Source: Cloacibacillus sp. An23 (GTDB lineage Bacteria > Synergistota > Synergistia > Synergistales > Synergistaceae). Taken from it: a DNA stretch of 64,000 nt. Of the stretch, positions 52,819-61,149 are shown piece after piece. Below the pieces are notes generated by a model, which saw nothing but the letters and a program-made list of their open reading frames with translations, searched no databases and was not told where the DNA came from. The translations under genes and the position numbers were made by a program. Positions within the stretch are counted from its first letter, which is position 1, and the number at the start of each line of letters is the position of its first letter. The stretch covers positions 1-64,000 of the forward strand of contig NZ_NFJQ01000005.1 of assembly GCF_002159945.1 (NCBI RefSeq), given 5' to 3'.

Positions 52819-53754
52819 TTAGGCTCTGCCGCACTTTCTGAGCAATTTCGCCCAGCTCGCGTCGGCGTCGCGCTGCGCCTCTTCGACTAGGTCGAGCCGC
52901 TCCGCGCCTTTTTTGAAGAGATGCGCGTAACGTCCCTGCGCGCGCAGGAAATCTTCTATCGAGACCTGCTTTTTAGGCTCGTAGGATAGCTTGTACTCCC
53001 CGTTCACGACTTCGTAGACGGGCCAGAATTTGCTGTCCGCGGCCATCTGGCATATCTCGACCTGACGCGACGGGTCTATCTTCCAGAAGAGCGGGCAGGG
53101 GACGAGAACGTTGACGAAAGCCGGCCCCGGCGTCTCGACGGCGCGTTTGACCTTCGCGATGAGATCCATCGGGTTGTGCAGCGTCGTCTGCGCGACGTAG
53201 GGGATGTCGTGCGCCGCTACGATTTCGGTCAGGTCCTTCGCGCGCTGGAGCTTTCCGGGCGCGGCGCTTCCGGCCGGAGACGTCGTCGCGTTTGCGCTCT
53301 GCGGCGTCGCGCTCGAGCGCTGCGCGCCGGTGTTCATGTAGCCCTGGTTGTTGTAGCAGATATAGGTGAAGTCGTGCCCGCGCTCGAGCGCGCCGGATAG
53401 AGACTGGAGGCCGATGTCGTACGTTCCTCCGTCTCCGCCGAAGGCTACGAATTTTATTTCCTTGTCTATCTTTCCCTTTTTGCGCAGCACTTTGTAGGCA
53501 GCCTCGATGCCCGAGACGCCCGCGCCCGCGTTTTCGAATGCTATGTGCATGTAGGGCATGCGCCACGCGCTGTACGGGTAGACGGTCGTCGAGACCTCCA
53601 TGCAGCCGGTCGCCGCGACGACGACGACGGGGTAATCGACGCCCATGAGCGCCTGGCGCACCGCGGTCGGCGCTCCGCAGCCGGGGCACATGCGGTGGCC
53701 CTGCGTGAGCGGGTTCTGTTTTTTCGTGAGTTCCTTTATGTTAATCGCGCACAT
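52819..53754 (-). CDS. 2-oxoacid:ferredoxin oxidoreductase subunit beta
   Basis: About 311 residues, thiamine-diphosphate-binding subunit of a POR/VOR-type enzyme, which oxidises or forms 2-oxoacids with CoA and ferredoxin. Cluster cysteines begin with CPGCG near residue 23, followed by the TPP motif GDGGTYDIGLQSLSGALERG and NNQGYMNTG. The fold and YPYSAWRMPYMHIAF segment are typical of archaeal-type pyruvate or 2-ketoisovalerate enzymes. AAGGAG lies eight bases before the ATG at 53754; an upstream in-frame ATG has no site. It overlaps the alpha gene by 14 bases. Confidence 0.92.
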   Translation of the reverse strand: MCAINIKELTKKQNPLTQGHRMCPGCGAPTAVRQALMGVDYPVVVVAATGCMEVSTTVYPYSAWRMPYMHIAFENAGAGVSGIEAAYKVLRKKGKIDKEIKFVAFGGDGGTYDIGLQSLSGALERGHDFTYICYNNQGYMNTGAQRSSATPQSANATTSPAGSAAPGKLQRAKDLTEIVAAHDIPYVAQTTLHNPMDLIAKVKRAVETPGPAFVNVLVPCPLFWKIDPSRQVEICQMAADSKFWPVYEVVNGEYKLSYEPKKQVSIEDFLRAQGRYAHLFKKGAERLDLVEEAQRDADASWAKLLRKCGRA

Positions 53755-54937
53755 CTTCGCCGCTCCTTTCAAGCAATCCTATGAAGCGCGCGGATGCGTC
53801 GTAGTCGTTCTTCATCATGCGCTCGAACACTGCTCGCGCGTCGGAGGCGAAGAAGTCGCGTCCGCCGAGGCCGAAGACGTATTCCTGCACGGGCACGCGC
53901 TGCTCGAGGCCGTAGAGCGCGCTCTTGACTTCGGCCGCGAGCGGGGCCGTGCCGCCTATGCTCGCGCTGCGGTCGAGCACCGCGACACCCTTTTTGCCTC
54001 CGGCGAGCCGCGCGAACTCCTTCACCGGGAACGGACGGAAGAATCGCACGCGCAGCAGCCCGGCCTTCACGCCTTCGTCGCGCAGTTCGTCCACGACGTC
54101 CTTGACGACCCCTGCCGCCGACGACATCACGACGACGAGATATTCCGCGTCGTCCGCGCGGTAGTCCTCTACGGGCGCGTAGTAACGTCCGGTCTCCTTC
54201 TCGAGCTCCGCGGCGAGCTCTTCGTAGACTGGGAGGACGTTGTTCATGCCCTCCATCTGGTTGCGCTTTATCTCGAAGTAATATTCCGACATCGTGAAAG
54301 AGCCGTAGGAGACGGGGTTGTCGGTGTCGAGCAGCGGATAGGCGGCCTTGCGCTCGCCCACGAAGCGGCGCACCGTCTCGTCGCCGAGCAGCTCGACTGG
54401 CTCGTAGCAGTGGCTCGTGATGAATCCGTCCTGGCATACGAAGACCGGCGTAAGCACGCGCGGGTCTTCCGCGAGGCGTACGGCGAGAAGCACGGAGTCG
54501 TAGACCTCCTGCGCGTCCTCGCAGTATATCTGCACCCAGCCCGAGTCGCGCTCAGGCATGCTGTCGGAGTGGTCGCAGTGGATGTTGACCGGCGCGCCGA
54601 GGCAGCGGTTGACTAGGCCGAAGACTATCGGCGCGCGGAACGCCGCCGCTATCGGGAATATCTCGTGCATGAGAGCGACGCCGTTGGCCGACGAGGCGGT
54701 CATGACGCGCGCGCCGGAGATAGATGCGCCGACGCAGGCCGATATGGCCGAGTGCTCGCTCTCGACCGCGACGTATTCGGAATCCACTTTGCCGTTCGCG
54801 ACGAAGTCCGCGAAACGCATAGGGATTTCCGTGGACGGCGTTATCGGGTAGGCAGCCACGACGTCGGGATTTATCTGGCGCATCGCCTCCGCGAAGGCGA
54901 GGTTGCCCGAGGTCATTACCTTTTTCTTATCTGACAT
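53741..54937 (-). CDS. 2-oxoacid:ferredoxin oxidoreductase subunit alpha
   Basis: A 398-residue subunit with the pyrimidine-binding half of the TPP site. VAAYPITPSTEIP and YVAVESEHSAISACVGASISGARV are the standard motifs, with TSSANGVALM, and the CoA-related C-terminal domain (LLRVRFFRPFPVKEFA; VAVLDRS). Compared with KGOR-type alpha subunits it lacks an N-terminal gamma domain, consistent with a separate gamma gene. Substrate choice between pyruvate, 2-oxobutyrate and branched 2-oxoacids cannot be read off directly; the isoleucine leader upstream favours the latter group. Confidence 0.92.
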   Translation of the reverse strand: MSDKKKVMTSGNLAFAEAMRQINPDVVAAYPITPSTEIPMRFADFVANGKVDSEYVAVESEHSAISACVGASISGARVMTASSANGVALMHEIFPIAAAFRAPIVFGLVNRCLGAPVNIHCDHSDSMPERDSGWVQIYCEDAQEVYDSVLLAVRLAEDPRVLTPVFVCQDGFITSHCYEPVELLGDETVRRFVGERKAAYPLLDTDNPVSYGSFTMSEYYFEIKRNQMEGMNNVLPVYEELAAELEKETGRYYAPVEDYRADDAEYLVVVMSSAAGVVKDVVDELRDEGVKAGLLRVRFFRPFPVKEFARLAGGKKGVAVLDRSASIGGTAPLAAEVKSALYGLEQRVPVQEYVFGLGGRDFFASDARAVFERMMKNDYDASARFIGLLERSGEDVRD

Positions 54938-55885: not shown

Positions 55886-55921
55886 AAAAAAGGGGCCCTT
55901 TCAAATTTGAAAGGGCCCCTT
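55886..55921 (-). terminator. leader terminator (attenuator) of the oxidoreductase operon
   Basis: A perfect 14-bp palindromic stem (GGGGCCCTTTCAAA with TTTGAAAGGGCCCC) followed by six T on the minus strand, placed between the leader peptide and the gamma gene. The 5' arm (55914-55921) can instead pair with GGCTCCTT inside the leader peptide coding region. Confidence 0.93.
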
Positions 55922-55969
55922 ACTCGTCTGGTCAAACGGCGCTAAACGCCGTTCCTACGAGAAGGAGCC
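55914..55969 (-). promoter_or_regulatory. antiterminator structure
   Basis: Three nested pairings can form in the RNA: GGCUCCUU (55962-55969) with AAGGGGCC (55914-55921, one G-U), CUCGU (55957-55961) with ACGAG (55923-55927), and AACGGCG with CGCCGUU around the leader stop codon. The outer helix uses the terminator's 5' arm, so the two structures exclude each other. A ribosome stalled at the isoleucine run leaves the 5' arm free; a ribosome reaching the stop codon covers it. Confidence 0.8.
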
Positions 55970-56019
55970 GCGTTAATAATTATAATTATTATGTTATTGT
56001 TGGTGATGCTTCTTAACAT
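55942..56019 (-). CDS. isoleucine-rich leader peptide controlling the oxidoreductase operon
   Basis: A 25-residue peptide beginning MLRSITNNN, then six consecutive isoleucines at residues 10-15 (codons ATA ATA ATT ATA ATT ATT), ending NGV. GGAGG lies exactly seven bases before the ATG. The promoter (56051-56079) would start transcription about 25 bases upstream. Downstream lie the pause/antiterminator hairpins and the terminator, the classical arrangement of amino-acid attenuation. Seven of 25 residues are isoleucine, so charged tRNA-Ile should be the signal. The rare ATA codons could increase sensitivity. Confidence 0.88.
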   Translation of the reverse strand: MLRSITNNNIIIIIINAAPSRRNGV

Positions 56020-56050
56020 AACGCTTCCTCCGTTCCCGCAAGATGACGAC

Positions 56051-56079
56051 ATATTATCATCGGCCGCCTTGAGTGTCAA
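56051..56079 (-). promoter_or_regulatory. promoter of the leader-oxidoreductase operon
   Basis: Consensus TTGACA (56074-56079) and TAATAT (56051-56056) at 17-base spacing on the minus strand; transcription start expected near 56044. Confidence 0.9.
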
Positions 56080-58704: not shown

Positions 58705-59097
58705 ATGTCGTGCGAAAACGGGAAAAACGACGCTGAGAACGGAAGCCGCGCGGCGGAGTGTCCCGTCGTCTACGCGCTCCGGATAATCGGGCAGAAATGG
58801 CGGCTGCCGGTAATGTGGCATCTGTATCAGCGGAAGTCCGCTCGATACAGCGAGCTGAAGCGCTCGATAAACGGCGTGACGAACATGATGCTGACGAAGG
58901 CGCTGCGCGAGCTCGAGGCGCGGGGGCTGATCGAGCGCCGCCAGTACGAGGCGGTGCCTCCGCGCGTGGAGTATTCGCTGACGGCCCGCGGCGCGTCTCT
59001 CATACCGACGCTCGACGAGCTGTACAAGTGGGGCGAGGAGCAGATGCGCATAGACGGCGCGCAGCGTGTTGACAGCCCGGCTCGGCCTCACATATAA
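58705..59097 (+). CDS. HxlR family transcriptional regulator
   Basis: A 130-residue winged helix-turn-helix regulator. CPVVYALRIIGQKWRLPVMW with the conserved cysteine near residue 19 and the RYSELKRSINGVTNMMLTKALRELEARGLI recognition-helix stretch are family signatures. HxlR proteins sense aldehydes, quinones or redox changes through the cysteine and control divergent reductases; here the adjacent nitroreductase (58028-58585) is the likely target. GAGG lies nine bases before the ATG at 58705. An upstream in-frame ATG at 58654 lacks a site. Confidence 0.88.
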   Translation: MSCENGKNDAENGSRAAECPVVYALRIIGQKWRLPVMWHLYQRKSARYSELKRSINGVTNMMLTKALRELEARGLIERRQYEAVPPRVEYSLTARGASLIPTLDELYKWGEEQMRIDGAQRVDSPARPHI

Positions 59098-59346
59098 TTA
59101 ACCGTCCGTATTCGGACGGCGCGGCTTTGGGGCCGCGCGCCGCATGAAGATTCTTCGCACCGCGTATCGCTTGCAGGATGAAATTCTCATTTCTTCTAAC
59201 CGCCGGGATGGATTCGCGCGGCACGAGGATGTTTGTGCCGGACGTACACGGGGGGACAGACGCATAATTTTTCGACGCGCAGGCGTTTTCAGCGCCGCGT
59301 GCCGGCTGTGCGCGCCCCGCGATATTCAGGAGGTAACTTTTAGATA

Positions 59347-61149
59347 ATGCAGGAAATTCAGGAAAGATTTACAGATTTTGATTTGAAGCCGGAGCTTCTG
59401 CGCGCCATAGAGCGCAAGGGCTTCGAGCACCCGATGCCGGTGCAGACCGCCGTGCTGCGCGACGAAAGCCTGATCGACAACGACGTGATCGTGCAGGCGC
59501 GCACGGGCTCCGGCAAGACGCTCGCCTTCGCCCTGCCGCTGCTGAACCGCATGGAGCCGGGGGCGCGCACGCCGCGCATCATCGTGCTCTCTCCGACGCG
59601 CGAGCTGGCGCAGCAGACGGCGCGTGAATTCGCGTGGCTCGGGGCGGACATGGGCGTGCGCGTCGCGACGCTCGTAGGCGGCCTAGATATGGAGCGCCAG
59701 ATACGCTCGCTGCGCGAGGGCGCGTCTGTCGTCGTAGGCACGCCGGGACGCATTCTCGACCACCTCCGCCGCGGCACGCTCAAGACCGAGGACATAACGA
59801 GCGTCGTGCTGGACGAGGGCGACCACATGCTCGACATGGGCTTCCGCGACGAGATGGAGGCCATCCTCCAGGCTATGGACCACGTGGAGCGCACGTGGCT
59901 ATTCTCCGCGACGATGCCGCCCGAGGTGCTGTCTCTGACGAAGCTCTATCTCGACGCGCCTAAGAAGATCTCGCTCGTCTCCGACGTCGCCTCGCACAGC
60001 GACATCACGCAGAAGGCCTACATCATTCCGTCGCGCCGCCGCTTCGAAGGGCTCGTCAACGTCCTGATATGGGAGAACCCGAGCAAGTCGCTGCTCTTCT
60101 GCGGCACTCGCGCCGAGACGCAGGACATTGCAGACCGCCTCTGCGACATAGGCTTCCGCGCGACGGCGATACACGGCGACATGAGCCAGCGCGAGCGCAA
60201 CAACGCGCTTTCGGCGCTGCGCGGCGGCCGCGTCTCGATACTCGTCGCGACCGACGTAGCGGCGCGCGGCCTCGACATCGACGCGGTCAGCCACGTCATA
60301 CAGTACGGCCTGCCGCAGAACCTCGAGGCATTCGTCCACCGCAGCGGACGCACGGGGCGCGCTGGACACGAGGGCAGCAACCTGATACTTCTCACCGCGC
60401 GCGAGGCGCGTCAGTTCAAGTTCATGCTCCATCAGTCGCACTCGAAGCTGACGCTCGAATGGATACCGGCTCCCGACGCCGCGGAGATAGAGGGCCAGTC
60501 GCGCATACGCTTCGAGAACAACATCATCGAGCACGCGCTCGAGTCGGACGAGTTCGAGGAATGGGCGCGCGAGCTGCTTTCGCGCGAGGAAGCGCCCGTG
60601 CTCGTCTCGGGGCTTCTCGCGAAGGCGTACGGAGATCAGCCGAGCGGCTATTCGATACGCGAGGACGTGCAGCTCGAGATGGACCGCGAAAAAGGCCGCC
60701 GCGACGCGGCGCAGCGCGGAAACGGCAGGGACGCCGCGAGACGCGAGCGCTACAAGCGTCCCGAGATGACCGGCGGACTTTCCGTGCAGTTCGCGGCCGG
60801 GCGCAACGACGGCTGGGAGGTCGGCCCGCTGCTCGGCGCGATATGCCGCGGCGCGGGTCTCGGACGCGAGGACGTCGGCAACATCCGCCTGCGCGACACG
60901 AGCGCCGTCGTCGAAATTTCGCCGCGCGGAGCCGCCTTCATAGAGGGACGCCGTGAGCGCCTCGAAAAAGAGGGGCTGCCGATAGCCGCGATGCGCGAGA
61001 TAACTGGCGAAAGCCGCGCGAAACGATACGGCGACCGCCCGCAGCGCCGCGAAGGCCGCGAGCCGCGCGAAGGGCGCGAAAACTTCCGCCCGCGCGCGAG
61101 ACGCGACGGAGAATCCGGCGCGCGCAGAAGGCTTCCGAAAGAAAAATAA
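59347..61149 (+). CDS. DEAD-box RNA helicase with C-terminal DbpA-type RNA-binding domain
   Basis: A 600-residue helicase. The Q motif region, ARTGSGKT (I), SPTRELAQQ (Ia), GTPGR (Ib), DEGD (II, instead of DEAD), SAT (III), ATDVAARGLD (V) and HRSGRTGRAG (VI) lie in order between about 20 and 345. A C-terminal ~75-residue domain (about 475-550) resembles the DbpA RNA-binding fold, with an Arg-rich tail. It probably acts in ribosome assembly or RNA decay. The leader of 240 bases is long, as in many cold-induced helicase genes. An AGGAGGT ribosome-binding site lies 12 bases before the ATG. Confidence 0.93.
   Translation: MQEIQERFTDFDLKPELLRAIERKGFEHPMPVQTAVLRDESLIDNDVIVQARTGSGKTLAFALPLLNRMEPGARTPRIIVLSPTRELAQQTAREFAWLGADMGVRVATLVGGLDMERQIRSLREGASVVVGTPGRILDHLRRGTLKTEDITSVVLDEGDHMLDMGFRDEMEAILQAMDHVERTWLFSATMPPEVLSLTKLYLDAPKKISLVSDVASHSDITQKAYIIPSRRRFEGLVNVLIWENPSKSLLFCGTRAETQDIADRLCDIGFRATAIHGDMSQRERNNALSALRGGRVSILVATDVAARGLDIDAVSHVIQYGLPQNLEAFVHRSGRTGRAGHEGSNLILLTAREARQFKFMLHQSHSKLTLEWIPAPDAAEIEGQSRIRFENNIIEHALESDEFEEWARELLSREEAPVLVSGLLAKAYGDQPSGYSIREDVQLEMDREKGRRDAAQRGNGRDAARRERYKRPEMTGGLSVQFAAGRNDGWEVGPLLGAICRGAGLGREDVGNIRLRDTSAVVEISPRGAAFIEGRRERLEKEGLPIAAMREITGESRAKRYGDRPQRREGREPREGRENFRPRARRDGESGARRRLPKEK

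Follow-up and report, generated by a model that had tools for sequence, protein, structure and literature searches.

The operon for a four-subunit 2-oxoacid:ferredoxin oxidoreductase in Cloacibacillus sp. An23 is preceded by a leader that has the parts of a ribosome-mediated isoleucine attenuator. The explanation that we prefer, at a probability of roughly two in three, is that an attenuator read by charged tRNA-Ile controls an anabolic oxidoreductase, most likely a 2-oxobutyrate synthase. Its components differ in strength. Control of the operon by such an attenuator appears nearly certain from the arrangement of the leader, and it is highly probable that the enzyme is anabolic and serves isoleucine supply. 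That its product is specifically 2-oxobutyrate, formed from propionyl-CoA, CO2 and reduced ferredoxin, seems probable in view of the regulation and of the gene content of these genomes. The 2-oxobutyrate would then feed IlvBH, IlvC and IlvD to give isoleucine.

Leader anatomy and predicted alternative structures

All parts of the attenuator are located on the minus strand of the An23 contig, at positions 56079-55886 of the window (the whole 64-kb stretch of DNA that was analysed). The initial annotation had described a consensus promoter here. A sigma-70-type promoter is indeed present, with TTGACA at 56079-56074, a 17-nt spacer and TAATAT at 56056-56051 preceded by TG, and it is near-consensus (10 of 12 matches) rather than perfect. 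A TTGACA-type -35 element and a -10-like hexamer are found at the corresponding place in 23 of 23 orthologous leaders. Elsewhere in the window, on the plus strand, a promoter that matches the sigma-70 consensus at 12 of 12 positions (59069-59098, 18-nt spacer) is situated about 250 nt upstream of a DEAD-box-helicase-like ORF at 59347.

The leader peptide, MLRSITNNNIIIIIINAAPSRRNGV, is encoded by an ORF of 25 codons at 56019-55942 that is conserved in the 23 orthologous loci, and a Shine-Dalgarno sequence, GGAGG (56027-56031), lies 7 nt upstream of its ATG. Six consecutive Ile codons (ATA ATA ATT ATA ATT ATT, 55975-55992) constitute the putative sensor, so that peptide, ribosome-binding site and Ile run are all found as first described. 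Of the Ile codons in the window, ATA is used most (56%) and ATT least (9%), so the Ile run is not merely a run of rare codons. ATA and ATT are decoded by different classes of tRNA-Ile, and most of the orthologous runs mix the two codons, by which both classes are probably addressed. Other sites with five consecutive ATH codons are few in the genome, and none of the five inspected is a leader with a Shine-Dalgarno site and a terminator.

Two structures are predicted beyond the Ile run. The 5' arm of the antiterminator (region 2; GGCTCCTTCTCGT at 55957-55969) is situated inside the Ala-Ala-Pro-Ser-Arg codons and, as GGCUCCUUCUCGU in the transcript, begins 5 nt past the last Ile codon. It is predicted to pair with the 3' arm (region 3; ACGAG-T-AAGGGGCC at 55914-55927, ACGAG-U-AAGGGGCC in the transcript) around an AACGGCG/CGCCGUU inner hairpin (AACGGCG-TTTAG-CGCCGTT, 55935-55953) whose loop contains the leader stop codon. 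The intrinsic terminator, which the initial annotation had correctly recognised as a 14-bp stem with a T tract, lies at 55921-55886; it has a 4-nt loop, its hairpin folds in 23 of 23 leaders, and 45 nt separate it from the gamma gene. The terminator draws its 5' arm from the 3' part of region 3, so that antiterminator and terminator are mutually exclusive. The 161-nt leader transcript folds far better than its shuffled versions (z = -7.8, 0 of 200 shuffles as good), and the predicted energies in the An23 leader are -33.5 kcal/mol for the antiterminator segment versus -26.7 kcal/mol for the terminator segment. Both alternative structures are predicted to fold in each of the 23 leaders. In folds of the leader that end just past the stop codon, a pairing of region 2 with the 5'/Shine-Dalgarno region is predicted, at a mean probability of 0.56-0.91 across the 23 leaders, as would be expected of a protector structure that forms when the ribosome is absent.

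In the mechanism suggested by these predictions, a shortage of isoleucine would stall the ribosome in the Ile run and leave region 2 free. Free region 2 would pair with region 3 as it emerges, the 5' arm of the terminator would be consumed, and transcription would read through into gamma, delta, alpha and beta. When isoleucine is sufficient, the ribosome would reach the stop codon in the inner hairpin and mask region 2, and the terminator would form. Where the leader is not translated at all, region 2 could pair with the Shine-Dalgarno region, and termination would be favoured too. From this geometry we infer the sign of the response: a stall would give read-through, implying an operon that is on at low isoleucine and suggesting an anabolic role for its product. 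Enzymes of the POR/VOR type are usually treated as catabolic, and these organisms ferment amino acids, so that one might think of an enzyme that removes 2-oxobutyrate or branched 2-oxoacids under a leader working in the opposite sense, with a stall leading to termination. This is very improbable, since in 23 of 23 leaders the antiterminator uses the 5' arm of the terminator, starts just past the Ile run and holds the stop codon in its inner hairpin, an arrangement by which a stall would free the antiterminator and completion of the peptide would mask it. The removal of an isoleucine precursor at low isoleucine would also make no sense.

Conservation and codon content of the leaders

When 61 genomes were searched for gamma, 24 Synergistaceae (family f1, An23 included) had a close orthologue among the loci returned, and the leader unit is present upstream of gamma in 23 of these 24 loci. 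The comparison of relatives proposed with the initial annotation thus revealed conserved Ile runs and helices ahead of the orthologous gamma genes, with some compensatory changes. In each of the 23 leaders, 5-6 consecutive Ile codons precede a C-terminal part with the conserved sequence AAP(P/S). The Ile run begins 18-21 nt upstream of GCGGCTCC, with which the antiterminator arm starts, and GCGGCTCC precedes the stop codon by 27 nt in every one of them. In the alignment, 98.9% of the antiterminator cells are paired, versus 36-53% when the partner is slid by 1-3 columns, which upholds the initial proposal of an exclusive antiterminator built from the 5' arm of the terminator and the codons after the Ile run. 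Two antiterminator pairs are changed on both sides; most pairs are invariant, hence the covariation is thin. In the one remaining locus (L024, genome G035) the attenuator has been lost naturally: gamma is kept, as is a promoter-like sequence 344 nt upstream of it, and the leader and terminator are missing.

No leader was found ahead of gamma homologues outside the Synergistaceae (L027-L032; five at 61-65% identity and one at 50%), nor ahead of those in other phyla (L059-L083 and L085-L091). Its retention in 23 of 24 Synergistaceae loci, together with its absence from homologous operons elsewhere, indicates that the leader is not there by chance. A search of 188 Synergistota genomes with a core pattern of 37 bases, 3 mismatches being allowed, gave matches in 30 of them, and its reversed control gave no match. 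Synergistaceae account for 28 of the 30, and gamma lies downstream wherever the downstream gene was read. The core occurs twice in G165 (C50 and C52) and in G179 (C221 and C104), with some copies at contig ends, as a result of duplication or of assembly. All counts of conservation and association given here are affected by the shared ancestry of the genomes. No family of Rfam 15, T-box or other leader RNA, reached its gathering score (Thr_leader scored 20.9, with 55 needed). Four sequence features that characterize an attenuator were found: a short translatable reading frame with consecutive Ile codons, a terminator before the first gene, a predicted exclusive antiterminator overlapping the leader codons, and conservation. 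Sequence comparison supports the leader, its alternative structures, their conservation and a specificity for Ile only.

A calibration of this specificity is provided by a second attenuator, with leader peptide and terminator, ahead of ilvH-ilvC-ilvB-ilvD in Synergistaceae (G000:C3 upstream of ilvH, before L109:5758; L116-L118, L121 and L123-L144). The ilvH leader of An23, MRVNNISNVINVVVVIISSGSPEVTGA, has a Val/Ile run without Leu; that of G008 includes SLVLVLVLLISSGSPEVADA. The count covers 25 genomes with an unambiguous leader, G007 and G025 being excluded for a divergent LeuA-like gene and a single Leu. The run is without Leu in 8 of 8 genomes that have no LeuA-grade match and contains Leu in 17 of 17 that have LeuA (Fisher p = 9e-7, kinship ignored). 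Since the codons of the ilvH leader track the products of its operon, an Ile-only leader implies an Ile-specific product. As a separate observation, a 472-aa divergent LeuA-like protein at L110:6776-10728 (G000:C6) has as its neighbour a protein in which a xylose-isomerase-like TIM barrel is fused to an AMP-binding enzyme, and a similar-looking pair is present at L117:8597-12271 (G007), the domains being those determined in G000 only. The pair adjoins the homodimeric PFOR in G000 and ilvD in G007.

The oxidoreductase and its likely product

Domain matches agree with the four-subunit 2-oxoacid:ferredoxin oxidoreductase that had been assigned downstream of the leader. On the minus strand, the gamma subunit (Pfam POR, PF01558; 55840-55268) is followed by delta (2x[4Fe-4S] ferredoxin type, PorD family; 55271-54927), alpha (POR_N and PFOR_II; 54937-53741) and beta (TPP-binding, PorB-like; 53754-52819, with the ATG at 53754, a putative start chosen on reading the ORF, preferred over the TTG at 53772 given in the program-made ORF list), that is, the domains expected of a POR/VOR enzyme. 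The best match in the PDB is the Pyrococcus furiosus-type POR (9bt4). The enzyme passes the cut-offs of two subfamily models, TIGR02175 and TIGR02179, and none of the substrate-specific pyruvate synthase/VOR models of NCBIfam exceeds its curated cut-off; pyruvate-type models score higher than 2-ketoisovalerate-type ones for alpha (365 vs 340 bits) and for beta (341 vs 275 bits). Between the leader-bearing enzymes and the leaderless ones outside the family there are 0 fixed differences in beta and six in alpha. As far as sequence can tell, the leader-bearing enzyme is not visibly specialised, and the six alpha differences are uninterpretable without a structure-based map of the pocket.

Enzymes of the PFOR type can be promiscuous. 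Since the nearest relatives are pyruvate-type and alpha and beta barely differ from leaderless homologues, an ordinary pyruvate synthase or oxidoreductase might merely be tied to isoleucine supply, e.g., in a general starvation response. An Ile-only sensor would be poorly suited to such an enzyme, however, because pyruvate also feeds valine, leucine and alanine, and the ilv leaders in these genomes use Val or Leu codons when valine or leucine is a product. The An23 genome also encodes, apart from this operon, a homodimeric PFOR about 1185 aa in length, and an ordinary pyruvate enzyme under this leader is accordingly improbable.

A clue to the product comes from G041 and G058, members of another Synergistota family, in which the same Ile attenuator core is followed by a gene of the serine/threonine-dehydratase-like kind (L145:420-1388 in G041; L146 in G058). 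The leader in G041 is MSDMHHDTAPFTCSFCSAIIIITSAAPPRRTGA, and the antiterminator and terminator of this gene's leader are also predicted to fold. The gene encodes a 322-aa PLP enzyme. Among PDB entries it matches serine dehydratase-like and L-serine dehydratase/L-threonine deaminase proteins best, and its matches to serine/threonine dehydratases in NCBIfam are below cut-off. Neither genome carries the oxidoreductase operon or has a close gamma homologue, the gamma-type match being weak (E about 1e-7). Deamination of threonine yields 2-oxobutyrate. The denominator shared by an Ile attenuator on the oxidoreductase and one on a dehydratase-like gene would thus most simply be 2-oxobutyrate for isoleucine.

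Two substrates had been proposed in the initial annotation, propionyl-CoA, which would give 2-oxobutyrate, and 2-methylbutyryl-CoA. We infer the direction of the reaction and its substrate from regulation and gene content rather than from the enzyme, and on this basis propionyl-CoA is favoured, because of the attenuator on the dehydratase-like gene, the Ile-only leader and the higher scores with pyruvate-type models. Carboxylation of 2-methylbutyryl-CoA to 3-methyl-2-oxopentanoate under the same attenuator would bypass IlvBH, IlvC and IlvD and would be equally Ile-specific. The IlvA of An23 makes a second source of 2-oxobutyrate look redundant, and related species are proteolytic gut and rumen anaerobes (PMC3709534), both of which speak for such a bypass. 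It is nonetheless unlikely, given that the matching attenuator in the other family controls a dehydratase-like gene, that alpha and beta are scored as pyruvate-type rather than 2-ketoisovalerate-type, and that ilvC and ilvD are retained in nearly all these genomes.

With ilvC and ilvD present in nearly all genomes searched, the onward path from 2-oxobutyrate to isoleucine is in place. Fifteen genomes have an IlvA (TIGR02079 type) over cut-off, among them An23, where the match is strong (605 bits vs a cut-off of 441), and most close relatives with the operon, so that the carboxylating route would not be their only source of 2-oxobutyrate. No Ile leader is present upstream of ilvA in An23. Citramalate synthase was rejected as a source, since none is over cut-off among the 61 genomes; a partial match of 356 bits occurs in G032, which is without the operon.

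Genus g12 (G012, G028 and G035; 96, 93 and 87% complete) has the operon together with ilvC and ilvD (fragmentary ilvD in G028), and neither a threonine-deaminase-like match above about 100 bits nor a citramalate synthase over cut-off was found in it. Methylmalonyl-CoA mutase-type genes in this genus are a possible source of propionyl-CoA. The genus also has a pyruvate formate-lyase-type gene, and the formation of 2-oxobutyrate from propionyl-CoA and formate could be an alternative there (PMC7476758); that paper argues that pyruvate formate-lyase may have this part in some of the anaerobes for which the ferredoxin-dependent synthesis was reported. Three genomes (G002, G007 and G025) are without the operon, IlvA and CimA alike, so missing known routes are no proof of a carboxylating one, and with several genomes only 55-90% complete, single absences weigh little. 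Among cultured relatives is Cloacibacillus porcorum, a member of the Synergistaceae. It forms propionate and failed to grow when isoleucine was the substrate (PMC3709534).

Relation to known systems and implications

The ilv, leu, his, trp and thr attenuators of proteobacteria have in common with the Synergistota leader a promoter, a Shine-Dalgarno site, a short ORF with a run of regulatory codons, an antiterminator and a terminator that exclude each other, and a likely 1:2 protector pairing. On the other hand, no sequence homology to them was found with Rfam, the run consists of Ile codons only, and the target is a ferredoxin-dependent oxidoreductase. The ilvH attenuator of the Synergistaceae shares the layout, with a codon run, G+C-rich codons after the run and a terminator before the first gene, but it has Val/Ile or Leu/Val/Ile codons and a different core sequence. 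The subunits and domains of the enzyme are the same as in the P. furiosus-type POR and other gamma-delta-alpha-beta POR/VOR enzymes, from which the Synergistaceae operon is distinguished by its predicted Ile attenuator.

Reports that anaerobes form 2-ketobutyrate from propionyl-CoA in a ferredoxin-dependent reaction go back to 1969 (Buchanan 1969; Monticello 1984; Eikmanns 1983; as cited in PMC7476758). To the extent that these studies are described there, both the proposed chemistry and its purpose, isoleucine supply in anaerobes, are the same. Whereas that synthesis is known biochemically, the Synergistaceae case is a regulated operon that would be tied to isoleucine by its sequence. The attenuation mechanism itself is classical, and the ferredoxin-dependent carboxylation of propionyl-CoA towards isoleucine has long been known to biochemists. 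In the open-access literature, no paper was found that connects Ile attenuation with a ferredoxin oxidoreductase. Within that literature, the new elements are the oxidoreductase as target, the phylum-level setting, and the placement of one attenuator ahead of two unrelated enzymes that likely make a common precursor. We lean, with some reserve, towards a wider generalization, namely a dedicated Ile-attenuated 2-oxobutyrate synthase in Synergistaceae and an attenuator that serves as a portable Ile module ahead of different same-precursor enzymes across lineages.

These findings are evidence that Synergistota use ribosome-mediated attenuation. In this phylum the codons of a leader may be read as a label of the operon product and may aid enzyme assignment. 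Which enzyme carboxylates propionyl-CoA in some anaerobes is questioned in PMC7476758, and the Ile-attenuated operon names candidate genes. If the explanation is true, the Synergistaceae operon would comprise the genes for a long-known reductive route to isoleucine.
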